Part shown: piece by piece, positions 3,061 through 39,439 of the stretch
How positions within the stretch are numbered: position 1 is the first letter of the stretch
Layout of the letters: the number at the start of each line of letters is the position of its first letter
IMG/VR virus record: IMGVR_UViG_3300031877_000338
Location: 1-40,223 of that record
DNA from: a virus
DNA length: 40,223 bases
Direction: 5' to 3' (one strand)
Position numbers and translations under genes: made by a program
Notes under the pieces: model-generated
What the model saw: the letters and a program-made list of their open reading frames with translations, nothing else
The model's database searches: none
Told to the model about the DNA's origin: nothing

Positions 3061-4517
3061 TACCTAAGTCATTAGCAGAAGCGTCAAGTGTACTCCGTCA
3101 ACGTCTGGCAAGCAGGATATGGACTCCTCCGCCCGTACCTGAAGTGAAGGCTCCGGCACCCGAAAAGAAGAGGGGTAGAGTGTTCATCTACACCGATAGG
3201 GGCAAGATTATCCCTTATTCAGAGCTTGAGAAGTTCGATATCAGGAAATCTTCGGGGCAGATAGAGGAGGAGGCCGCATGGGGTGAGGGAAAGGGGCTGG
3301 CCTCCAGACCATGCGATCCAACTACACTGCTTTTAGTCTGGGAGACTGACCCCATACTTTTCCGCATAATCGATCAGATCGCCATTGATACGGTCGGACA
3401 GGGCTGGATACTTACGCCAAGAGACGGAGAGAAGGGGAATCAGTCAGAGAAAGATCAGATTGAGGAGCTGCTAAACGGACCAAACCCTGAGCAGTCATTA
3501 GAAGATATACTCTCCAGCATGATCATAGACCTGGAGGGTATAGGTTACTGCTCAATGGAGTGCGTGCGCAATAACGGCGGGAAACTGGCGGAGCTTTATG
3601 ATCTGCCGGCACACACTCTTTGGGTACATAAGGGCGAGCCCGGACGGCGAAGATATAAATTCTGTCAGAAGCGGGGCCTGCAGGAGGTATGGTTCAAGCG
3701 ATTCGGGATAGTGGAGAATTTCTCCGCCGCTACTGGCGATGAGGGCGAATTCACTGGCGAGGCTGCCGCACATGAGCTTATTTACTTGAAACTACACTAC
3801 AGGCTGAACGATTATTATGGCATCCCACCTCTCTTGCCTGCCTTAGCCTCAGTTTTAGGGCTGATCGGTATAAGGTCATATAACAGGTCATTCTTCGATA
3901 ACTATGGTATACCTGCCTACATGGTCACACTTACTGGAGAATGGGAAGAAGGGTCGGACGACGACATTGCCCGGTTCCTGAGTACCGAAGTCAAAGGAAG
4001 CGAGAACGCGCACAGGACGATCGTCCTTCAATTGCCGGAGGGCGGAGAGATTAAACTGGCTCCGGTATCAGTTACGGAGAGGGAAGGCTCTTTCAGGATA
4101 TTCAATCAGATATGGCGTGAGGATGTTCTGGCAGCTTACGCTATGCCACCGTACAGGATCGGAATCATGCCGGCAACTGGCAGGCTTGGCTCTGGCAAAG
4201 AAGCTCAGGAACTTACGGAGGTATATATACACAGTACAGTCGAGCCGCTACAGAGAAGATTTGAGAATATGATGACACAAAGGATAATCCAGCAGGGACT
4301 CAAATTCAATTCCTGGAGCTTCAAACTGAATGACCTTGACATTAGGAACGTGGCAGCGGAGGTGGAGATGTATAACAGTCTGGTAGCACACGGCGCGATG
4401 ACACCTAACGAAGAAAGAGCGAAGCTGGCAATTGGCGACCCTTATCCAGGGGGTGCTAAATTCTACATGAGCACATCGCTGAAAGAAATAGCAGGGGCAG
4501 GAGGAGGCAAGAAGTGA
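3057..4517 (+). CDS. Portal protein
   Basis: 486 residues. It forms the dodecameric ring at the capsid vertex through which DNA passes. Family hallmarks are the N-terminal LVWETDPILFRIIDQIA, the DLPAHTLWVH strand, YYGIPPLLPALASVLG, and the C-terminal REDVLAAYAMPPYRIG with the helix after it (HSTVEPLQRRFENMM), as in PBSX/HK97-like portals. It overlaps terL by 4 nt at its start and the next gene by 4 nt at its end. The proline-rich stretch at residues ~23-40 is variable in the family. Confidence 0.92.
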   Translation: MIPKSLAEASSVLRQRLASRIWTPPPVPEVKAPAPEKKRGRVFIYTDRGKIIPYSELEKFDIRKSSGQIEEEAAWGEGKGLASRPCDPTTLLLVWETDPILFRIIDQIAIDTVGQGWILTPRDGEKGNQSEKDQIEELLNGPNPEQSLEDILSSMIIDLEGIGYCSMECVRNNGGKLAELYDLPAHTLWVHKGEPGRRRYKFCQKRGLQEVWFKRFGIVENFSAATGDEGEFTGEAAAHELIYLKLHYRLNDYYGIPPLLPALASVLGLIGIRSYNRSFFDNYGIPAYMVTLTGEWEEGSDDDIARFLSTEVKGSENAHRTIVLQLPEGGEIKLAPVSVTEREGSFRIFNQIWREDVLAAYAMPPYRIGIMPATGRLGSGKEAQELTEVYIHSTVEPLQRRFENMMTQRIIQQGLKFNSWSFKLNDLDIRNVAAEVEMYNSLVAHGAMTPNEERAKLAIGDPYPGGAKFYMSTSLKEIAGAGGGKK

Positions 4518-7500
4518 GGATAGAGAATATAACGGAAGAAAACTTGAGGCAAGCTACCGATAATGAGCTTTACTCTCTCCGCCTGCGGTTCATGCAACTT
4601 CCTGGCTGGTTCGCTAAGAACCCTCTTATAACACCAGATTGGGGTGCGGTATTCGCCAAAGCCTCTCTTTTAGCGGATGAAATAAAGAATCGTCCATCTA
4701 TATCTATCGATCCCGATGAATGGTTGTCAACTTATAAGCAAAGGGACAGTCAAGAATTTTATATAAGGGCTATTGGTGCCATGGCTCAAACTCGCTCAAA
4801 GCAAGGGAAGCACTTCTGTCTTTTAATTCACCATAAGGACTCCGATATACTTGTCGATCCCGCTGTGCCAGCGCGTGAGATTGAAGCTTCTCCCACTGTT
4901 ATTATTATCACCCAGGCGGATCGCGATCACTGGACGCACTTAGGCGACTTTGCTACTGTGCCCCTGTACTCGACCGGCTCCATCCTGGATCAGATCGATT
5001 CTTCCTTCGCTACAGGAAAAAGACATCCCTTCCTGAAGCCTATCTCCTTCGATGGTTTAGTCATACGCCCGATCAGAACCATCCACAGAGTAGGTTCTCC
5101 ATCTATAGGTATCAGAGTTGAGCGAGGACGACACAAGGTCTCTATCCTTCCCGAATTCCTTCGACTTGGCGAAGCGGAGCGCGAACTGATCGCTGGCACG
5201 GCCTGGATCGCAGGTTGTGGAGACTACGAGGATGATGATGAAGAGGCTGGCAAACTATCATTCAAATCGCTAATGGATTTAGCAGATGAACTAAAACCGA
5301 GGGCAGTTTTCTTAACCAATTTGAGGACGGCGCTGTTAAAGCACAGGAATGCTGTCAGGCTTGCGCTTTCTAACTTCGATGGCCAGATATTGATGGATGG
5401 GGATACCGTCCAGTCAGAAGAGCTTGAAAAATCCGATACGCCGGGCATATACCTCGTACCACCTCACGGACAATGGATTTGGGAGGGAAAGAAAAAGCTG
5501 ATAATTAAGGCTAAGGAATTCCCAAACATGGTGAACGTACCATTGGTACTGGTATCAGGGAAGAAAGCATATGGAGTTATCCGTCTGCATAAGCCTAACA
5601 AGATTGACTTAAACGGATTCGACCTGACCAGAATGGGCCACTTAATCTCTGATAAAGAGCGAGTTGACTGGTGGGGTGGGTGGCGAAAAGAGTTTTATGC
5701 CTATGATTTTGACATAATCGAGAAGTATCAAAAGCCACGGTCTGTGATTGCTCCACGTGGAGCACAGACATTCATTGAGGATGTCAAATTCGAGGATGCT
5801 GTAAGGAAGGCATCCGCCTGGGGCCTGGCGAAGCCATCATACAGGATTTTTTCTCTCGAGGACCTGAAAAACACGCCCGGATTTGATAAGGGGCGGGCTG
5901 TCATTGAATCAAAATTTGACGGGGTCCGCGCTAGGGTAGAGCGAGGTGATAACGGCGAAGTCAGGATAATGACCGACCCGGAAGAGACAGCTACCCCCAT
6001 AAAGACCAAGCGGCTACCCTGGCAGGCTAAGGAATTAGAGAAGCTGCCCGGGGGCGGCTTTTCGCTGGATGCAGAGATCGTGATGGTAAAAGATGGTGAG
6101 TGCCTGCACAGAACATCAGTAAACGCTTTAATAAACGGCAAATTCGACCCGACCGAAGCATCGAAATTAGCTCACATCTATGTCTTTGATATTCTTGAAT
6201 TTGAGGGAAAATCACTCAAAAACGCTCCGCTAGAAGAGCGAAAAGAGGAGTTAGCGAGGTTCTCAGATTCGGAGCACATACACTTCATTCGCCCGACCAT
6301 ATCGTTAGATAAACCTTCATTATCATACGTCGTGGACCTGGAGCGGGCCGCTGATGTACAAAAAGCTCTTTCCCATTTGTTAAGTTACGCTCACAAAGGC
6401 GGCCCGTTCCCAAAGAAAATATCCGAGGGATGCATGATAAAGAAGCTGGACTCACCATACACTGGCAAGACGTGGGTTAAGTTCAAGGAGGAGTACGAGG
6501 TAGATTGCCTCGTGGTGGGGAAGCATGAGATCATCAGAGAAGGGAAGAAAACCGGAAACTGGAACTATGACCTCGCTGTCGGCGCCATTTCGCGTCCGTG
6601 GGCGGAGGCCATATCACGGAGTAATAAAAAGGCTGTCATTGAATTTGAGGGAAAATTCTACAATATCACAGGCAAGAGCGACAACACCGGGCAAGATGTC
6701 AGAGTCGGGTCTATTCTTAGAGTCGCTGCGGAGGACGTTAACCGATTTGAGACAGATAACCCGGAGTATCCGTACTACAAGACATACGTCGCCAGAGTGA
6801 AGCAGCCAGTACCGGAACGACATAACCCTGACAGTATGTTTGTCCTCCAGAGATTATCTGAGATGACTCCCAGACGCGAAACATTCGTCAAGGCAGGCAT
6901 CCAGGACGATATGAAGGTGTCTATAGAAGCGGGGAAGATACCGAGAGAGATATATAACAAGTATGCGGGCGAAGGCGACCCGTTACCAGCGGAGTTTTAT
7001 ACTGACTACCGGAAAGGCACGGCATGGCTGCAGAGCCACTTGCGCGGGATCAAGCAAGAGGATAGAGAAGCCTATGAGAAGAAGGAAGTATCCTTCGCGG
7101 ATACAATAAAGGGGCACTCAATTCATCTAGATTTAAGGCTTAGCATTGAAGGTCTACCAAAGCTAGTTCAGTACGTTATAACCGAATCGGATGTGCCATC
7201 TTACTTCAGGATGCTGAGGGGCGAAAAGCGGGAGACTGCCGGTGGAGTGGAGAACGTCCAACATTCGTTTATAGTTATCAAACCTTCGGCGCTTCAAGAA
7301 CCAGAGGTAAAGAAAGCGGAGGAGGAACTAATAATAGATGAGTCCGGCTCGAAACTGATAGCAGATTATCAGATATTTGGAAAGAGCTATTGGATACCGC
7401 CCGGAGAGGTGGGGTCTTCGGCTTATAAATACGCCTGGATGGGGTTACTATGGACAGGAACAGTTCGCGGCGGAATAATGCGCCGTGATTATAAAGAGCT

Positions 7501-7747
7501 ATTCTTCTATCCAGATCGTGATTTACCTAAAAAGAATAAGGAGCTTCTGGATGGGAAATTTATAATCAAATGTCTGAAGCGGCCGGAGGGTACAGCACGA
7601 TGGGAAATCTGGAGGGCCACGAAGGATCCATGGCCGCAGGACCCGATTGAGCACAAAGATTCTGGAGATTGGTATCCTGTTAAAGCAGAGGATGTGAAAT
7701 CTTTTGGTAGAGAGCACTACACTTACGGAAGAAAAGAGCCAGAGTAA
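4514..7747 (+). CDS. Multidomain ATP-dependent DNA ligase fusion with phosphoesterase-like C-terminus
   Basis: 1077 residues. From N to C: a degenerate metallo-beta-lactamase-like region (~80-290; TQADRDHW at 133-140 keeps only the D-H part of the HxHxDH motif), an ASCH- or PUA-like region (~315-430), and an ATP-dependent ligase core (~450-800). The ligase motifs are complete: I ESKFDG with adenylated Lys467, YVFDIL as motif III, SEGCMIKK as motif IV (Lys643), and WVKFK as motif V (Lys656). The last ~230 residues contain GHSIHLDLRL (His868, His871, Asp873, Arg875), which recalls the phosphoesterase domain of bacterial LigD. It is translationally coupled to portal. A ligase inside a head operon suggests an end-repair role before or during packaging, which is inference. 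The start is GTG 4514 overlapping the portal stop. Confidence 0.8.
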   Translation: MRIENITEENLRQATDNELYSLRLRFMQLPGWFAKNPLITPDWGAVFAKASLLADEIKNRPSISIDPDEWLSTYKQRDSQEFYIRAIGAMAQTRSKQGKHFCLLIHHKDSDILVDPAVPAREIEASPTVIIITQADRDHWTHLGDFATVPLYSTGSILDQIDSSFATGKRHPFLKPISFDGLVIRPIRTIHRVGSPSIGIRVERGRHKVSILPEFLRLGEAERELIAGTAWIAGCGDYEDDDEEAGKLSFKSLMDLADELKPRAVFLTNLRTALLKHRNAVRLALSNFDGQILMDGDTVQSEELEKSDTPGIYLVPPHGQWIWEGKKKLIIKAKEFPNMVNVPLVLVSGKKAYGVIRLHKPNKIDLNGFDLTRMGHLISDKERVDWWGGWRKEFYAYDFDIIEKYQKPRSVIAPRGAQTFIEDVKFEDAVRKASAWGLAKPSYRIFSLEDLKNTPGFDKGRAVIESKFDGVRARVERGDNGEVRIMTDPEETATPIKTKRLPWQAKELEKLPGGGFSLDAEIVMVKDGECLHRTSVNALINGKFDPTEASKLAHIYVFDILEFEGKSLKNAPLEERKEELARFSDSEHIHFIRPTISLDKPSLSYVVDLERAADVQKALSHLLSYAHKGGPFPKKISEGCMIKKLDSPYTGKTWVKFKEEYEVDCLVVGKHEIIREGKKTGNWNYDLAVGAISRPWAEAISRSNKKAVIEFEGKFYNITGKSDNTGQDVRVGSILRVAAEDVNRFETDNPEYPYYKTYVARVKQPVPERHNPDSMFVLQRLSEMTPRRETFVKAGIQDDMKVSIEAGKIPREIYNKYAGEGDPLPAEFYTDYRKGTAWLQSHLRGIKQEDREAYEKKEVSFADTIKGHSIHLDLRLSIEGLPKLVQYVITESDVPSYFRMLRGEKRETAGGVENVQHSFIVIKPSALQEPEVKKAEEELIIDESGSKLIADYQIFGKSYWIPPGEVGSSAYKYAWMGLLWTGTVRGGIMRRDYKELFFYPDRDLPKKNKELLDGKFIIKCLKRPEGTARWEIWRATKDPWPQDPIEHKDSGDWYPVKAEDVKSFGREHYTYGRKEPE

Positions 7748-9795: not shown

Positions 9796-10302
9796 GTGGG
9801 TAAAGCACAGTGGGCTATAGAATTGGATTTCCGCTCCGCGAGACAGGAGACGATAAAGCCACCCTCAGAGTCAGAGGTCAAAGAGTGGGACGAAAAACGA
9901 GGGCAGCTTCTAAAGGAAATCTCCAAGTTCGTCTCCATAATCCAGAAGAAGGAGGACGAGCGGATCGTCTGTGGAGTGGTGTACGAGCCGGACATAGTAG
10001 ATGCACAAGGCGATAGGGCGTCGGAAACGGAGATAAAGAAGGCCTGCTACAAGTTCATGGAGAACGTACAGAGGTTCGGAGAGAACCACGTCAGGGACTC
10101 CATCAGATGGGCATTTGGGGCGAAGCCGATCGCAAAGGTGCTGGAGAACTACATCGCGCCTGTGGATTTCATGATAGAGAGTCAGCTTGTAAGGAGAGGC
10201 AGTTGGGTTCTGATAACCAGGGTGATGGATGAGGAAATCTGGGCGAAGATAAAGTCCGGTGAGATAACTGGCTACTCCATGGCTGGAAGGTCAAAGCATT
10301 AG
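9796..10302 (+). CDS. XkdF-type prohead protease, N-terminal catalytic part
   Basis: 168 residues matching the XkdF putative serine protease domain: CGVVYEPDIVDAQGD near residues 54-68, a conserved histidine in FGENHVRDS, the VDFMIES strand, WVLITRVMDEEIWAKIKSGE, and the ending TGYSMAG near residues 159-165, where a catalytic serine is expected. In related proteins the chain continues into a region of the type LxDLDLDEISxVxxPAN, which here begins the next ORF 460 bp downstream. GTG 9796 is preceded by AGGAGG. It probably matures the prohead by cleaving scaffold and capsid. Confidence 0.85.
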   Translation: MGKAQWAIELDFRSARQETIKPPSESEVKEWDEKRGQLLKEISKFVSIIQKKEDERIVCGVVYEPDIVDAQGDRASETEIKKACYKFMENVQRFGENHVRDSIRWAFGAKPIAKVLENYIAPVDFMIESQLVRRGSWVLITRVMDEEIWAKIKSGEITGYSMAGRSKH

Positions 10303-10313
10303 GCAGTTTTCAG

Positions 10314-10343
10314 TTGACTTTTAAGATAGCTTTGTGGTATGAT
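10314..10343 (+). promoter_or_regulatory. Extended -10 promoter of the structured RNA
   Basis: TTGACT (10314-10319), 18-bp spacer, TATGAT (10338-10343) with a TGG extension directly upstream. It starts 11 bp after the stop of the protease gene, so the RNA downstream has a promoter independent of the late operon. The predicted start site is near 10350. Confidence 0.75.
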
Positions 10344-10349
10344 CGATAC

Positions 10350-10699
10350 CGGAGCCGGAAACCTCCAAAAACCAAAAGAGAAATCTCTGGCGGAGAAATC
10401 TCTGCCAGAGACCTATTAACCTTGATCATTTCCGCGAGAAGCGGTTAATGATGTGACCTTGCCGGGCTGGTCACGTAAATAATCCCGCCCGGCCGTCGCA
10501 CACTGCCATCGATAACGCAGTGAAAGGGAAGCGGGCGACTCCTCGTAAGCTACTGAGCTAGACTTACGGAAAGCCCGTACAATAGGTCAGTAAGTCTTTC
10601 GCCCTACTGGATAGGGTCGGTCAGGATCAAGATAAGCACAAAGTGGATGCCTGAGCTTGTGAAGGATTACCAACAGGCTTGCGCATCCACTTTTTTTTT
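10350..10699 (+). ncRNA. Structured RNA of ~350 nt with two pseudoknots, unknown class
   Basis: The RNA lies between a promoter and an intrinsic terminator. Helices seen: TCTCTGGC/GCCAGAGA (10384-10391 with 10404-10411) continued by GAG/CTC under an AAAT loop; ATCATT plus CCGC with GCGG plus AATGAT (10425-10452); GTGACC/GGTCAC (10453-10458 with 10469-10474) whose loop GCCGGGC pairs with GCCCGGC at 10487-10493, a GC-only pseudoknot; CACTGC/GCAGTG (10501-10522); GCGGGC/GCCCGT enclosing CGTAAG/CTTACG, whose loop TACTGA pairs with TCAGTA at 10587-10592, a second pseudoknot; CCCTA/TAGGG (10602-10616). GACTTAC (10561-10567) can instead pair with GTAAGTC (10590-10596), giving an alternative fold. 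It lacks a tmRNA T-arm/CCA end, RNase P landmarks and a complete group I core. It may be a phage structured RNA, a packaging-type RNA, or an intervening sequence. Confidence 0.8.
10641..10699 (+). terminator. Intrinsic terminator of the structured RNA
   Basis: AAGTGGATGC (10641-10650) pairs perfectly with GCATCCACTT (10683-10692). An inner stem AGCTTGT/ACAGGCT and a run of nine T follow the usual layout. Full read-through of the late operon would have to pass this site, so expression of downstream capsid genes may depend on antitermination or an unseen promoter. Confidence 0.9.
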
Positions 10700-10761
10700 G
10701 CCGGCCGGCGATGGGGGGTGCTCAAGCGTAGGGTGGAGAGGAACGAGGGAGGCGATAGCAG

Positions 10762-11730
10762 ATGCAGGGGAATTTAGAGAAAAGGGATCTCAAAGACATA
10801 GACTTAGACGAGATCTCATTTGTTAAGACTCCAGCCAACAAGAGGACATTTCTTTTCTATAAGGGGCTGGAGAAAGCAGGCGACTACGTATGCCCTGAGT
10901 GTGGATACAAGAAAACGTTTGACAAACCTGTCCGTAATCCAAAGTGTCCGAAGTGTGGGACGATAATGGAGTGCGCGTCGGGGAAGTCGGAGGACGGATC
11001 AATGGAGCTTAAGAAAGATCAGAAGCTAGAGGAGTTTGTAAAGAGTTTTGAGGGCGATGGCTTCACCTGGGGTAGCATCGATCTGGCGAAAGAGTACAAA
11101 GAATTTCTGGGTGAGGAGATGGAGAGCGAGCAGGTTGAGAAGCAGAAGAAGCTACCTGAGAAGGTGTATAACGCCATCAAAGGGGCTTTCAATATCTTAA
11201 ACAAGTATAAGGACGACCTGCCATCGGACTTGAGGTCGGCTGTCGAGTCCTTAGCGAAGTACGCCGCTGGCAAGTATCCATACCCTAAGCCCTATAAGAA
11301 AGGCGAGGAGGAGGAGGGCGAGGATGTGGAGAAATCAGGCAAGAAGCTCTCGAAGGACACCATCGGAAAATTGATGGCGATCAGGAAGATCCTGGACGAA
11401 CTTCTACCAGAAGATGTGAAGAAGGCCCTCGAGGAAGAGGCGAAAGAGCCTGACCCTATCGCTATACTGAAGAGTATATCCGACAGTTTGACAGCCTTTG
11501 GCAAGCGGCTTGAGAAGCTGGAGAAGGGCGAAGGCGGGAAGGAAGAGTCCGGCGATGGCAAGGGTGAGGACGAAGGGCCAGCCGACGAAGTAACGAAGCA
11601 GCTAGAGGCCATTGCGGATCGGCTTGATACACTGGAGAAGCAGAAGCCGGCGAAGAAGGGCCTCGAGGGGGATGGCAAGGAAGAACTGGCAAAGTCAGAC
11701 GAGGATCTCTGGCCTAGTGTGAAGGTCTGA
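10762..11730 (+). CDS. XkdF C-terminal region fused to zinc ribbon and scaffold-like tail
   Basis: 322 residues. It opens with LKDIDLDEISFVKTPANK, which normally follows the XkdF protease domain in one chain. Next is a zinc ribbon (CPECG near residue 44, CPKCG near residue 63). The rest is very rich in Lys and Glu, with helices such as LTAFGKRLEKLEK and ADRLDTLEKQK, as expected for a scaffold or delta-type domain. An in-frame stop at 10756-10758 and GGGAGG 9 nt before ATG 10762 show it is translated separately. Thus the protease and scaffold halves are split by the RNA gene. The product probably guides prohead assembly and is removed by the protease. Confidence 0.75.
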   Translation: MQGNLEKRDLKDIDLDEISFVKTPANKRTFLFYKGLEKAGDYVCPECGYKKTFDKPVRNPKCPKCGTIMECASGKSEDGSMELKKDQKLEEFVKSFEGDGFTWGSIDLAKEYKEFLGEEMESEQVEKQKKLPEKVYNAIKGAFNILNKYKDDLPSDLRSAVESLAKYAAGKYPYPKPYKKGEEEEGEDVEKSGKKLSKDTIGKLMAIRKILDELLPEDVKKALEEEAKEPDPIAILKSISDSLTAFGKRLEKLEKGEGGKEESGDGKGEDEGPADEVTKQLEAIADRLDTLEKQKPAKKGLEGDGKEELAKSDEDLWPSVKV

Positions 11731-11847: not shown

Positions 11848-12966
11848 ATGCTTACTAACAGGCGACTACTTAACATGCAGGAGAAGGTGGACTTGATACA
11901 GAAGATGGTATCGCTGCCCGCCATTACGTTATCAGCGGAGGAGGCGGATAGGTTCATAGAGTGCGTCTGGGATCGGAGCGTGATGAAGAACCACGCGAGA
12001 TTGGTGAAGATGGATCACCAGACAAAGAACGTGAGGGCAATAGGTCTGGGCACATCCCGGATTCTGAAGCCGGCAGCCACCTTCACGCAGTCCGACTATG
12101 TAAAGGAATTTGAGGAGAACAGGATCCAGCTTTCGTCTAAGGAGCTTCGCGCCTGTGTTGTGATATACGACAAGGATCTAGAGGACATAAACGTTGGGAC
12201 GCCACAGGCGTTCAAGAACACGGTTATGTCCATGGTTCAGAAGAAGATGGCGGAGGAGCTAGACGAGATCTACTGGATAGCTGATAATCATAGTCTATCG
12301 GGATTCGCCAACACGGATGCCAGGAGCGTCATGGACGGTTGGCGATACCAGTTGGATCACAGCCAGTCAGGGGAGGATTATGAGAACGATGTGGTTGGTA
12401 GTTGCGTCCTTCTGGACGCGTCAAACACGATCGGGGCGAGGGCAGGCAGCTTCTCACTTACCACCAGTCAGGCTATAGCCGAGCAGAACGCAAGCGCGCC
12501 CTACAACTGGGAGTTTAAGTGGGTAGACATGCTGAAGTATCTACCTTCACAGTACAAGCTCGGGGGCTTGAAGAAGCTCAGGTTCTTCTTAAACGATCAG
12601 GTCCTGGACAACTACATAGAGGCATTGATGGATCGCTCCACTCCTTTAGGCGATAGCGTACTAACTGGAAAAGAGATGCTCCATTTCGGCATGGTTCCTG
12701 TAGTTCCGTGCCCGCTGATGCCGACGACTATGAAGATAGACACGGTGGACGCCCAGAAGGAAGCTCTGAAGTCGGATGGCACACTAACTGACTGTCTATT
12801 AACACACGAGGAAAACTTGATCATAGGTGTGCAGAAGGATATACAGATGGAGGGCGAGCGGTCGGCTGCTGATAGAGCCAACTACTTCTTCTTCACAATA
12901 CGAGCTGACGTGGCGATAGAAGATGTCCACGCGTGTGTACTGTTGAAGAGGTTGAAGGTAGTATGA
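11848..12966 (+). CDS. Major capsid protein, HK97-like fold
   Basis: 372 residues, typical length. It builds the icosahedral shell. Features are an N-terminal helical segment, an E-loop-like region with a conserved aromatic and charged pattern (AATFTQSDYVKEFEENRIQLSSKELRA at ~75-101), a long spine helix (AFKNTVMSMVQKKMAEELDEIYWI), the P-domain MLKYLPSQYK, and the C-terminal TIRADVAIEDVHACVLLK, a common ending of HK97-fold shells. Start is ATG 11848 with GAGGTG upstream. It is flanked by heptad tracts on both sides. Confidence 0.88.
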   Translation: MLTNRRLLNMQEKVDLIQKMVSLPAITLSAEEADRFIECVWDRSVMKNHARLVKMDHQTKNVRAIGLGTSRILKPAATFTQSDYVKEFEENRIQLSSKELRACVVIYDKDLEDINVGTPQAFKNTVMSMVQKKMAEELDEIYWIADNHSLSGFANTDARSVMDGWRYQLDHSQSGEDYENDVVGSCVLLDASNTIGARAGSFSLTTSQAIAEQNASAPYNWEFKWVDMLKYLPSQYKLGGLKKLRFFLNDQVLDNYIEALMDRSTPLGDSVLTGKEMLHFGMVPVVPCPLMPTTMKIDTVDAQKEALKSDGTLTDCLLTHEENLIIGVQKDIQMEGERSAADRANYFFFTIRADVAIEDVHACVLLKRLKVV

Positions 12967-31764: not shown

Positions 31765-33447
31765 TTAGAATGGCGTATCGTCAATAGCTTCTGGCTCTCC
31801 GGCTATCTGGCTTTCCGGTTCCTTTTCTCCTATCGGTGGAGTAAACTGGATAGGAGATCCCGACTCAGCAACGGCGGACGCAAACTCAATCTGCCAGGTC
31901 TCCCAATGGTCGGGTTTAATATCAGCTAAACGGTAGAGGCCGCCAACTGGCTTGACCTCCATCCTCTTAAAGAATCCATCCATGACTTTCACGCCGATAT
32001 TCGGGTCGTCAAGCTGGATAAGAAATTCGTAGACGGTGGAGATGAAGCTCTCCACCTCTTCTACGCCGCCCACCCACTCAGCCCACTCGATGTGCATCTT
32101 GACCGCTTCCCTCAGCCTCGTGAGCACCTTGTTGTCGCCGATAGCTCTCGCCAAAAGAGTACGTATGTCGTCGCTCGCTCCCGCAAACGGCGCAGTGTAT
32201 CGGCACTTCAGGTAAAAGACGAGGTTATCCAGAGAGCCTGTCCTGGACGCGACATCACGGATAGCTTGAAATACAGGCTTTATCTTTTTAAGCTCCTCCA
32301 GCAACGCGATCTGTTGGTCAGTGGACAAATCTTTGACCTCTGATACCTGCTGGCCGGTGGCGACCGGTAAACCATCGCCGTTAGTAGTGCAGGACTGGTA
32401 GTGGGTTCTCAGGTAGAGAGCGAAGGAGTCCGGAGTGAAGCCTGACTCGCCTGCAAGAGTAAGAATCTGATCTGGCAGGCCCACATCCTTCCTGGATAAT
32501 TCATCCTCAAGCGAAGGAAGCGCACCTATGGCTTTTGTGAAATACTCCTCAGAATCCCAATCTGTCAGGGATGGTCTATCAGGGAATAGCTCAGCTTGCC
32601 AGTTGTGCCTGTTCCCTTCATCCTGGAAGAAAGTGCGGACATGAGGGAATTTTATCTCTCCTGTCTTTTTGTCAGGGGCGAAGCTGGCGAAGTACCTGGC
32701 GCGCCAGTAGTCATAATCGAAGGCTGGTGGTTCCGGCTTCTGGCCTTTCTCCGGTTCGCCGGCTATCGGGCCTTCTGGCTTTCCTGTTTTTTGAGAGAAT
32801 CTAGCATCGCCGTTGGCTGCCGCTTCGGAGGTAAGATTCTCAGTCTGTGGAAGCTCCTCCGGGATGTATGGAAGGCTGCCACACTCACTAGGAAACAAAA
32901 GGCGGCTTCCTTGAGATATGGCGCACTTTTTGAGTTGGAAGGATGGCTGTGAACGGTGCATGGCTCTCTCCTTCATTCCGTCGCGAGACTGAACGAAGGC
33001 GACCTCTTTCCGAAGGACCGTCCATCTGAACTCCCTGGACCAGTCCCTTCGTTTGCAGATGTATGTGGCTCTGGTGGGGTTGTCATCGTCATCACAGACT
33101 GCATCCCAATACTCCACCAGTCCTGTCCTCTCCGCTCGGTCAAGGTACGAGCGGTAGCCGGTTATAGTAACAGCGTTACCGCCGGGCTTCGCCAGGTATA
33201 TCTCATTCTTCCAGGGGTCAAGGTGGCAGGCTTGACAGATAAGAATGAACGCCCTCACCTCGTCGTCTGTGCAGTTTGGGGGTGCGATAAACTGGCGGAC
33301 ATCTGAGAACTCCAATCTGATATCCGGTAGTGGCGGCGGCTGGTAGATAACAGGGTAGGGATGTGCCGCCTGTGGGTAGCGAATCTCTTCGGGAAATTCA
33401 CTCTCTTTGTCGGTTTCTGCCATCGTGAGAAGCTCTTTCTGTGACAT
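31765..33447 (-). CDS. recT: RecT-family annealing protein with long C-terminal extension and SSB-like tip
   Basis: 560 residues, about twice the size of RecT. The first ~200 residues fit RecT/Redbeta-type proteins: FIAPPNCTDDEVRAFILICQ, HLDPWKNEIYLAKPGG and VTITGYRSYLDRAERTG. They promote strand annealing in phage recombination. The remaining ~360 residues are mostly helical and unassigned. The chain ends in EAIDDTPF, which matches the DDxPF acidic tip of bacterial SSB that recruits repair proteins. GGAGGTG precedes ATG 33447. An ATTGATTTA operator half-site lies in its leader. Confidence 0.8.
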   Translation of the reverse strand: MSQKELLTMAETDKESEFPEEIRYPQAAHPYPVIYQPPPLPDIRLEFSDVRQFIAPPNCTDDEVRAFILICQACHLDPWKNEIYLAKPGGNAVTITGYRSYLDRAERTGLVEYWDAVCDDDDNPTRATYICKRRDWSREFRWTVLRKEVAFVQSRDGMKERAMHRSQPSFQLKKCAISQGSRLLFPSECGSLPYIPEELPQTENLTSEAAANGDARFSQKTGKPEGPIAGEPEKGQKPEPPAFDYDYWRARYFASFAPDKKTGEIKFPHVRTFFQDEGNRHNWQAELFPDRPSLTDWDSEEYFTKAIGALPSLEDELSRKDVGLPDQILTLAGESGFTPDSFALYLRTHYQSCTTNGDGLPVATGQQVSEVKDLSTDQQIALLEELKKIKPVFQAIRDVASRTGSLDNLVFYLKCRYTAPFAGASDDIRTLLARAIGDNKVLTRLREAVKMHIEWAEWVGGVEEVESFISTVYEFLIQLDDPNIGVKVMDGFFKRMEVKPVGGLYRLADIKPDHWETWQIEFASAVAESGSPIQFTPPIGEKEPESQIAGEPEAIDDTPF

Positions 33448-34757: not shown

Positions 34758-34796
34758 ATGGCATAAAGACAAAGGTAACGATTGGAGGTGAAACGA

Positions 34797-35552
34797 TTGT
34801 CCTGGACACACATATATCTGGCTTCTGGTGGTGCTCATTCTACGTGCATGATACTCAAGGCGTTAGAGGATGGGTATCCTATAGACCAGGCGGTATTTTA
34901 CGATCACGGATACCACAGGGAAGAGGTTTACAAAGTGATTGAAAAACTAGATCGCGATATACCAAAAAAACTGGTAACGTTATATCCCAGAGGACTAGAT
35001 GGTGATCAAAAGACGTTGGAGTATTTTCTGACTGAAGCCAGGTTAAGGAAAAAATCCGGAGAGTTGAAAACAGGTTACGGGTGGCCTACTCCGAAGAACG
35101 CATGGTGCTGCCGGATGGGGAATAAAACTATCAAAGGATATCTGAGAAGTCTTGGAGGTGAGGTAGTTTCCTACATAGGAGTTTGCTATCTGGAGAAGGC
35201 AAAGAAGCCTGTAGACACAAAGCTAATAAAGACACGGTATCCGCTGAAGTGGATGCGGATCACGAGGCGGCTGGCTGTAAACTTCTGCCGGGAGCGCGGA
35301 TACGATTGGGATGGGCTGTATGAAAGAGTACCACGCTGTCGGTGCTGGTGCTGTCCACTGGAGCGGATTTCAGAACTGCGGCGGACGTGGGCACTGTACC
35401 CGGAAGTCTGGCGGCGGCTGGAGCGACTGGACGAAAAAACTCCCGGTCGGTTCAGGCTGGACGTGGAGTCAGTCAGAGATTTGAGCGCGAGGTTCGCGGC
35501 TGAGGCGCGGGGTCACACAGGGACTGCGGGCGCCAGGTGGGTGCGTAGGTAA
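34797..35552 (+). CDS. PAPS reductase-like PP-loop protein
   Basis: 251 residues from TTG 34797, which has GGAGG 8 nt upstream; TTG 34782 in the same frame is less well placed. The PP-loop ASGGAHSTCMI (usual SGGKDST) binds ATP-type substrates. Cysteine motifs WCCRMGNK and PRCRCWCC may bind an iron-sulfur cluster or zinc. Related phage proteins are annotated as phosphoadenosine phosphosulfate reductases and resemble DndC. Possible roles are sulfur transfer to DNA or nucleotides. It has its own promoter and stands outside the early operon. The C-terminus is Ala/Arg-rich. Confidence 0.75.
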   Translation: MSWTHIYLASGGAHSTCMILKALEDGYPIDQAVFYDHGYHREEVYKVIEKLDRDIPKKLVTLYPRGLDGDQKTLEYFLTEARLRKKSGELKTGYGWPTPKNAWCCRMGNKTIKGYLRSLGGEVVSYIGVCYLEKAKKPVDTKLIKTRYPLKWMRITRRLAVNFCRERGYDWDGLYERVPRCRCWCCPLERISELRRTWALYPEVWRRLERLDEKTPGRFRLDVESVRDLSARFAAEARGHTGTAGARWVRR

Positions 35553-36526: not shown

Positions 36527-36560
36527 TTGACTACCTCCTTAGAAAGTGAGCCGCTTGTCT

Positions 36561-36622
36561 GGCTGCTCGTCAGGTTATGACAGCCGTGTCATAACAACCG
36601 GGATTGCTCCCGGTTTCGCTTC
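36561..36622 (-). ncRNA. Structured RNA motif, copy A
   Basis: On the minus strand: GAAGCGAA, then ACCGGGA-GCAA-TCCCGGT (GNRA tetraloop), then GTTATGAC-ACGGCT-GTCATAAC, then 7 nt and GCAGCC. It begins 2 nt after the stop of the 93-residue gene. A second copy at 38198-38260 keeps the same order, loop lengths and flanks, but the second stem differs in four paired positions. The GNRA loop exists only on this strand, which is the coding strand of the operon. Confidence 0.8.
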
Positions 36623-37870: not shown

Positions 37871-38197
37871 TGTAATCCTCCTCTGCCTGCTTCCTGCACC
37901 TGGTTATCAAGTGCTTAACCCGACTCCACCAGAAGCAGGGCGATTGTCGGGATTGGGCTTTATCCGTCGTCAAACATTGTAGCGTCCTCTGGGTCACGGC
38001 TTCGCTTGTCTCTCCCCGGAGACCAGACTCTACGCTGCCAGAGGATGTGGAGAACCAACTCCAGTATTGACTATGGCTCGATGAGGGCCTGCATCTTTGC
38101 CGCCTGAGGTGGGTGTCCATTGCAGCTTGCGTCTGCTTGTTGCTTGGCTCTTGCTGCGGGGCCGCCACAAGGGGCTTAGGGTGTCGAGTCACCCTTC
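37871..38197 (-). other. Non-coding structured interval downstream of RNA motif B
   Basis: About 330 bp without a convincing gene; the overlapping frame 37815-38192 shows no ribosome site or family pattern. Stems include CCTCTGG (37986-37992) with CCAGAGG (38038-38044), AGCGT (37981-37985) with ACGCT (38032-38036) crossing the former, GTCTCT with GGAGAC around 38008-38023, and GGGTG/CACCC just below motif B. It may be a long leader for the lipoprotein gene. Confidence 0.5.
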
Positions 38198-38260
38198 GGC
38201 TGCTTATTCAAGCTCCGACAACCACGTCGGAGCGACCGGGATTACTCCCGGTTTCGCTTC
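38198..38260 (-). ncRNA. Structured RNA motif, copy B
   Basis: Same layout as copy A on the minus strand: GAAGCGAA, ACCGGGA-GTAA-TCCCGGT, then GCTCCGAC-GTGGTT-GTCGGAGC, 8 nt and GCAGCC. The tetraloop is GUAA instead of GCAA, both GNRA. It overlaps the stop codon of the 170-residue membrane gene by two nucleotides. Paired changes in the second stem support a conserved RNA fold. Confidence 0.8.
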
Positions 38261-39013: not shown

Positions 39014-39439
39014 CTAACTGCGGACAGACAAACTAAGCAAATCCAACTGAGAACTATCGGCAGAGGGACTGTCAACAAAGTACCGCACAGGGACGCCAGC
39101 GCGAGAAGCACAGCCAACACAATGACAAGTGCCGGAGCAGGGCGAACCAGTAACAAAGAACGCAACACAAAGGTCAACACCGGAATCAATCATTTGTTGA
39201 TTACGAACCAGACCGGCGCGGCGACCGAACCGAGACCAATCAGGAGAGAAAACACGGACGGGGATACCAAGATCGGCACACACAGAACCAGCCAGAGAAT
39301 CAGCACCCGCCGCGCCACCATGAATCACAGACAAGGAAGGATGTTCACAAAGAAGTCCAGACAAGACAGAGAACATGAGGGGACGGTTCTCAAATTCACG
39401 AGAGCCAGAGACAAGAACTACGAAGCCCACAGGACACAC
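39014..39439 (-). CDS. SLOG-family protein (YpsA/DUF2493-like)
   Basis: 141 residues. VVLVSGSREFENRPLMFSVL, VIHGGAAGADSLAGSVCADL, IPVRVFSPDWSRFGRRAGLV and RNQQMID are the core motifs of the SLOG Rossmann-like fold that senses or processes nucleotides such as NAD- or ADP-ribose derivatives. The C-terminal CVAFFVTGSPCSGTCHCVG completes the fold. The start is GTG 39439 or GTG 39430, the latter 8 nt from GGGGG. SLOG proteins accompany membrane or nuclease effectors in several conflict systems. Confidence 0.85.
   Translation of the reverse strand: MCPVGFVVLVSGSREFENRPLMFSVLSGLLCEHPSLSVIHGGAAGADSLAGSVCADLGIPVRVFSPDWSRFGRRAGLVRNQQMIDSGVDLCVAFFVTGSPCSGTCHCVGCASRAGVPVRYFVDSPSADSSQLDLLSLSVRS

Follow-up and report, generated by a model that had tools for sequence, protein, structure and literature searches.

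The question raised by this locus is whether a structured RNA lying between two head genes of a phage acts on its own or forms part of the messenger of the genes that follow. The window, that is the whole stretch of DNA analysed here, is a 40.2-kb virus record (40,223 nt; IMG/VR IMGVR_UViG_3300031877_000338). One co-oriented block in it encodes a terminase, a portal, a ligase-containing protein, an XkdF-type prohead protease, a zinc-ribbon/scaffold-like protein and the major capsid protein, and the RNA occupies the 459-nt gap from the protease stop (10302) to the ATG of the scaffold-like gene (10762). The latter product, in which Pfam recognises only a weak zinc ribbon, is termed scaffold-like as a putative assignment from its position and its acidic, coiled-coil-like sequence. 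Within the same block, the ligase-containing product (4514-7747) is 1077 aa long and has an ATP-dependent DNA ligase domain as well as a weak metallo-beta-lactamase-like match at its N-terminus. A search of bacterial genomes for the host by means of the capsid protein returned no match.

The presence of a structured RNA, as proposed in an initial annotation of this DNA, was confirmed: promoter, helices and terminator were all located, and the region 10345-10700 folds at -140 kcal/mol, with a z of -7.0 against shuffles. The extended -10 promoter that it described is present. A comparably good site occurred in one of 200 shuffles of the 90 nt following the protease stop; over 3.2 kb such sites are not rare, with one found against 2.7 expected. 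Likewise, the strong intrinsic terminator was recovered at 10640-10699 as a long hairpin followed by T9, having been overlooked by a simple terminator scanner since its loop exceeds 8 nt. The coordinates of all features are collected in Table 1.

Table 1. Positions of the genes, signals and RNA elements around the protease/scaffold junction of the window.
Feature	Position	Strand	Evidence or remark
XkdF-type prohead protease gene	9796..10302	+	Pfam PF14550, E 8e-32; upstream neighbour of the RNA
Sigma-70 promoter TTGACT-18-TATGAT, extended -10	10314..10343	+	Promoter scan, shuffles; relatives with TTGACA at the same place
Structured 5' domain specific to this phage	10350..10615	+	z -6.2; homologue searches empty
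Hairpin CTCTGGC..GCCAGAG	10385..10410	+	Sequence, folding
Hairpin ATCATT..CCGC/GCGG..AATGAT	10425..10452	+	Sequence, folding
H-type pseudoknot, S1 10453-10458/10469-10474, S2 10461-10467/10487-10493	10453..10493	+	Shuffles
Helix GTCGC/GCGAC around hairpin CACTGC/GCAGTG	10495..10539	+	Sequence; inner hairpin in MFE
Hairpin CGTAAG/CTTACG with candidate second pseudoknot TACTGA/TCAGTA; alternative GACTTAC/GTAAGTC	10544..10596	+	Sequence
Segment X (GGTCAGGATC), 5' arm of hairpin 1	10619..10628	+	Pairs with A, two bulged G's; kept in relatives
Segment A (AAAGTGGATGCCTGAGCTTG), 3' arm of hairpin 1 and 5' arm of terminator	10640..10659	+	Pairing analyses
Segment B, 3' arm of terminator and 5' arm of hairpin 2	10672..10693	+	Folding, model alignment
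T9 tract of intrinsic terminator	10691..10699	+	Sequence
Segment A' (GGGGGGTGCTCAAGCG), degenerate copy of A	10713..10728	+	Pairs with B (hairpin 2); aligned by model R1
Ribosome binding site GGGAGG and ATG of scaffold-like gene	10747..10764	+	Sequence
Zinc-ribbon/scaffold-like gene	10762..11730	+	Directly 3' of the RNA; homologues follow the RNA in relatives
Major capsid protein gene	11848..12966	+	Matches annotated capsid proteins

The statement that the RNA resembles no known class also held. The covariance models of Rfam 15, which include GOLLD, ROOL, OLE, RNase P, tmRNA, 6S, group I/II introns and riboswitches, gave no family at gathering level for the RNA when run over the window. With relaxed thresholds (E <= 5) over 10280-10760 the best match reached only E 2.8, and the RNAs of 12 relatives were not matched either. 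A tRNA/tmRNA scan of the window found none, and blastn against annotated phages found no phage with a sequence similar to the RNA. GOLLD and ROOL, with which it shares phage association, high structure, pseudoknots and lack of a known function, lie near tRNA islands, and GOLLD is often longer than 800 nt (PMC12286853). The RNA studied here differs from both in that it is unmatched by their models, measures about 350 nt, and is situated in a head operon of a window free of tRNA by the scan.

Searches of IMG/VR with the protease and capsid proteins provided about 150 loci, although many of these overlap one another on shared contigs. Many relatives have no gap: the genes adjoin and the scaffold motif follows the protease stop after 40-50 nt, whereas others carry some 130-500 nt at the same site, with a TTGACA promoter and a structured RNA. 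The order protease, promoter plus RNA, scaffold, capsid recurs in about 20 distinct IMG/VR phages. Sequence similarity among their RNAs is low, and it was by side-by-side reading that four conserved segments, X-A-B-A', were recognised, spanning 10619-10728 in the window. In the relatives the TTGACA often overlaps the stop codon of the protease gene, and in nearly all of them 13-41 nt separate it from X, compared with about 270 nt of structured RNA between promoter and X in the window. X and A form hairpin 1, which contains two single bulged G's. A and B form the terminator hairpin, or an equivalent helix, after which a U-tract stands in many members. A' lies downstream of the U-tract, within the 5' UTR of the next gene, and pairs with B as hairpin 2. 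An extent of 10314-10699 had been assigned to the RNA in the initial annotation; the elements are indeed found there, but the conserved unit runs on to about 10728.

The pairings are maintained in spite of the low similarity. Of 11 members tested for hairpin 1 with its bulge pattern, 10 had it equalled at most once when the upstream 80 nt were shuffled 500 times; the window is the weakest, its modest X:A being matched by 13 of 500. Compensatory exchange is seen at pairing positions, for example U-A, A-U and G-C at one position. In a 14-sequence alignment, 92.9% of the X:A cells are paired and two-sided changes occur in 9 of the 14 pairs; a slide by one column reduces the pairing to 51-56%. For A:B, the alignment of subgroup A gives 91.7% paired cells with two-sided changes in five pairs, while hairpins 1 and 2 together are 92.2% paired in the six-sequence subgroup nearest the window. 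The subgroups were aligned separately because MAFFT misaligned X when applied to all of them. In both, RNAalifold picked hairpins 1 and 2 unprompted, bulges included.

Covariance models of the core were also used for searching. The best four matches of model R2 (subgroup A) in 298 kb are all at the junction, with E-values of 2e-5 (L063), 0.003 (L017), 0.017 (L024) and 0.027 (L021), and none of the four belongs to its training set. R2 gave no match in the window. Model R1, built from the nearer subgroup with the window excluded, matched best, over the whole window, at 10603-10732 and on the correct strand, albeit weakly (13.7 bits; E 0.089 in 3 kb and 1.2 over 40 kb). Because R1 is weak and R2 misses the window, membership of the window in the family rests jointly on position, promoter, terminator sequence, the two bulged G's, A' and the weak model match. 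Single-sequence searches with the whole RNA (blastn, nhmmer) missed relatives even where structure comparison works. At the same junction in L026, L060, L075/L042, L056, L083 and L076, a promoter and/or terminator-like hairpins were observed that could not be matched to the X-A-B-A' core; these RNAs are possibly further divergent members.

It should be noted that X:A and A:B are mutually exclusive, as both use segment A, and that each shows compensatory changes in its conservation. For a transcript of the window ending at 10657, the computed probability of X:A is about 0.9; once B has been transcribed, X:A is gone. The A:B fold amounts to -27.4 kcal/mol, compared with -30.1 kcal/mol for X:A plus B:A', of which B:A' provides -19.6 kcal/mol. 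Among four relatives computed, the two states either lie within 1 kcal/mol (L070) or the tandem hairpins are favoured. Such calculated energies and probabilities would fit the expectation for a co-transcriptional switch.

Whether the element works in cis or in trans is reflected in what it travels with. Cargo separates the RNA from the protease gene, not from the scaffold gene (L010, L018, L066, L071, L072). A Vsr/DUF559-type endonuclease lies upstream of the RNA's promoter in L009/L010, where RNA and scaffold gene stay together; a similar zinc-finger endonuclease-like ORF takes this place in L072 and a multi-gene insertion in L018. The pairings are also kept where the U-tract is missing (L016, L018, L066 and the group L049/L050/L054/L057/L058). 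Because the RNA tracks the scaffold gene, A' lies past the terminator and the pairings persist without a U-tract, the conserved element is, as judged from these comparisons, part of the capsid mRNA leader. The independent gene of the initial annotation, an RNA "moron" whose promoter and terminator would delimit a trans-acting RNA of about 350 nt that has its own structural or regulatory function, is rather unlikely. It would account for the RNA having its own promoter, a strong terminator and a strongly folded, pseudoknotted 5' domain, and a small ORF occupies the same slot in L021, as with autonomous inserted units. However, conservation continues past the terminator to A' in the 5' UTR, a terminator is missing from several homologues, the scaffold gene is the constant companion, and the 5' domain is without homologues, so that independence found no support.

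What is best supported is a new family of leader RNAs in front of phage scaffold-capsid genes, whose core is bistable and coupled to a terminator; here an unusually large 5' domain is joined to it. Specifically, the RNA is probably a cis-acting, promoter-proximal bistable leader, or attenuator, of the scaffold-capsid genes, and we infer that it controls termination ahead of the capsid genes. RNA polymerase would start from the promoter and hairpin 1, with its bulged G's, would form first. By default, B would displace X, the A:B terminator would form and a short RNA, about 350 nt here, would be released. If hairpin 1 or the tandem hairpins were stabilised by a phage or host antitermination factor, by the polymerase itself or, here, by the 5' domain, A:B would not form; A' would hold B, and the polymerase would continue into the genes for scaffold and capsid. 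Where relatives lack a U-tract, the switch could operate post-transcriptionally, for instance on translation or mRNA stability. Several relatives are of this kind, so termination is not the general function of the element, which speaks against this reading, as does the fact that the many relatives without the RNA presumably express their capsid all the same. How much capsid and scaffold a tailed phage makes is mostly attributed to late promoters and regulatory proteins. An RNA switch that is conserved and covarying, lies before the scaffold-capsid genes of a broad phage group and is absent from Rfam would add a new family to the regulatory RNAs, and the pairings of X, A, B and A' make it precisely testable.

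Known systems resemble this leader in part. In lambda, the pR' leader yields the "6S" RNA, ending at the tR' terminator, and antitermination is brought about by Q, which acts via DNA and the paused polymerase. The likeness consists of a promoter and a short, structured, terminated leader before late structural genes, where antitermination would open the operon; no conserved bistable X-A-B-A' RNA is known in the pR' leader. As in attenuators and riboswitch expression platforms, an antiterminator hairpin (X:A) excludes a terminator hairpin (A:B) in a 5' leader, both being conserved, and the same scaffold-like gene follows the RNA in the members, with cargo only upstream. Unlike those systems, the present leader matches no Rfam class, bears two regularly placed bulged G's and a third helix, B:A', past the U-tract, and occurs in phage capsid operons with an upstream domain that varies among phages. 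Literature searches for a capsid-leader RNA of X-A-B-A' design found none.

A parallel for the hairpins themselves is the put RNA of HK022, two tandem bulged hairpins close to the promoter (PMC9378689). The put RNA binds the beta' zinc-binding domain of RNA polymerase and causes processive antitermination. Hairpins 1 and 2 of the window are likewise tandem and bulged. They could bind elongating polymerase so that terminators are ignored, A:B being a competing inactive fold, although we regard this as improbable. The tandem hairpins stand close behind the promoter with no obvious protein partner, and in all five members computed they are at least as stable as the terminator fold or about equal to it; putL is just downstream of PL and putR about 270 nt past the PR start (PMC9378689). 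However, the hairpins showed no match to put in sequence, the genes served by put in its lambdoid phage are early and not structural ones, and the first terminator here overlaps the hairpins themselves, an A:B-type fold that is not described for put.

It is similarly improbable that the region is a promoter with an ordinary terminator and incidental pairing, the capsid genes having their own promoter and the hairpin only blunting read-through. Strong TTGACA promoters and U-tract terminators in many members agree with this, and in the copies with a U-tract the hairpin could be a plain terminator that insulates the capsid genes. A plain terminator, however, would have no need of the compensatory changes in X:A and B:A', and A:B is retained without a U-tract in L016, L018 and L066. 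A pRNA-like packaging or head-assembly RNA made in late expression, a role floated in the initial annotation, is highly improbable and gained no support: it would suit an RNA located among the head genes, with protease on one side and scaffold on the other, but the conserved part has switch geometry and sits in the leader of the downstream scaffold and capsid genes, many relatives are without the RNA, and comparison with known models, as for a phi29-type packaging RNA, gave no Rfam match. A group I/II intron, or an xkdF gene interrupted in some other way, was ruled out: the relatives have two separate genes, with a ribosome binding site there and a gap of about 10 nt, and no intron model matches.

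The 5' domain is a feature of this phage. Alone (266 nt, 10350-10615) it folds with a z of -6.2. Two pseudoknots had been proposed in it. The H-type pseudoknot GTGACC/GGTCAC plus GCCGGGC/GCCCGGC, with loops of 2, 1 and 12 nt, was matched by 0 of 300 shuffles and stands; the other (TACTGA 10551-10556/TCAGTA 10587-10592) is no more than a candidate, seen in the sequence but competing with GACTTAC/GTAAGTC. An alternative pairing, of CTTGATC from the hairpin at 10425-10452 with GATCAAG near 10625, can likewise be read from the sequence. Homologues in metagenomic phages, the search for which had been suggested at the outset, were found for the core in about 20 phages, but not for this domain: none was obtained by blastn against annotated phages, by matching exact patterns to viral contigs and genomes, or by comparison among all loci, and the whole records of eight relatives contained just one 23-nt match. 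Because no homologue was found, its stems are supported by energy, plus shuffles for the first pseudoknot. L021, nearest by protease identity, has a 66-aa ORF of no known family in the corresponding slot. The domain may be a sensor, a passenger or cargo, or serve a separate function. That it senses a phage head protein, a host factor or a metabolite and drives the conserved X-A-B-A' platform, as a riboswitch-like timer of capsid synthesis with input modules interchangeable among phages, is an unlikely scenario.

Several further observations were made. In L016, L061, L063, L066 and L070, the Shine-Dalgarno sequence of the scaffold gene lies, by eye, apparently inside its own small hairpin, which suggests a translational layer. 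Homing-endonuclease-like genes, DUF559/Vsr-like with zinc fingers or HNH, are inserted at the protease/scaffold junction or next to it (L009/L010, L072, L043), which looks like an insertion hot spot. Elsewhere in the window, weak protein matches were obtained for 34782-35552 (PAPS-reductase-like), 39014-39439 on the minus strand (YspA/SLOG-family) and 31765-33447 on the minus strand (RecT-family). Two hammerhead ribozymes of type II (36557-36621 and 38194-38259, minus strand) lie at the phage's right end, scoring 43 and 45.5 bits and exceeding the Rfam gathering score; that at 36557-36621 sits just upstream of a minus-strand ORF.
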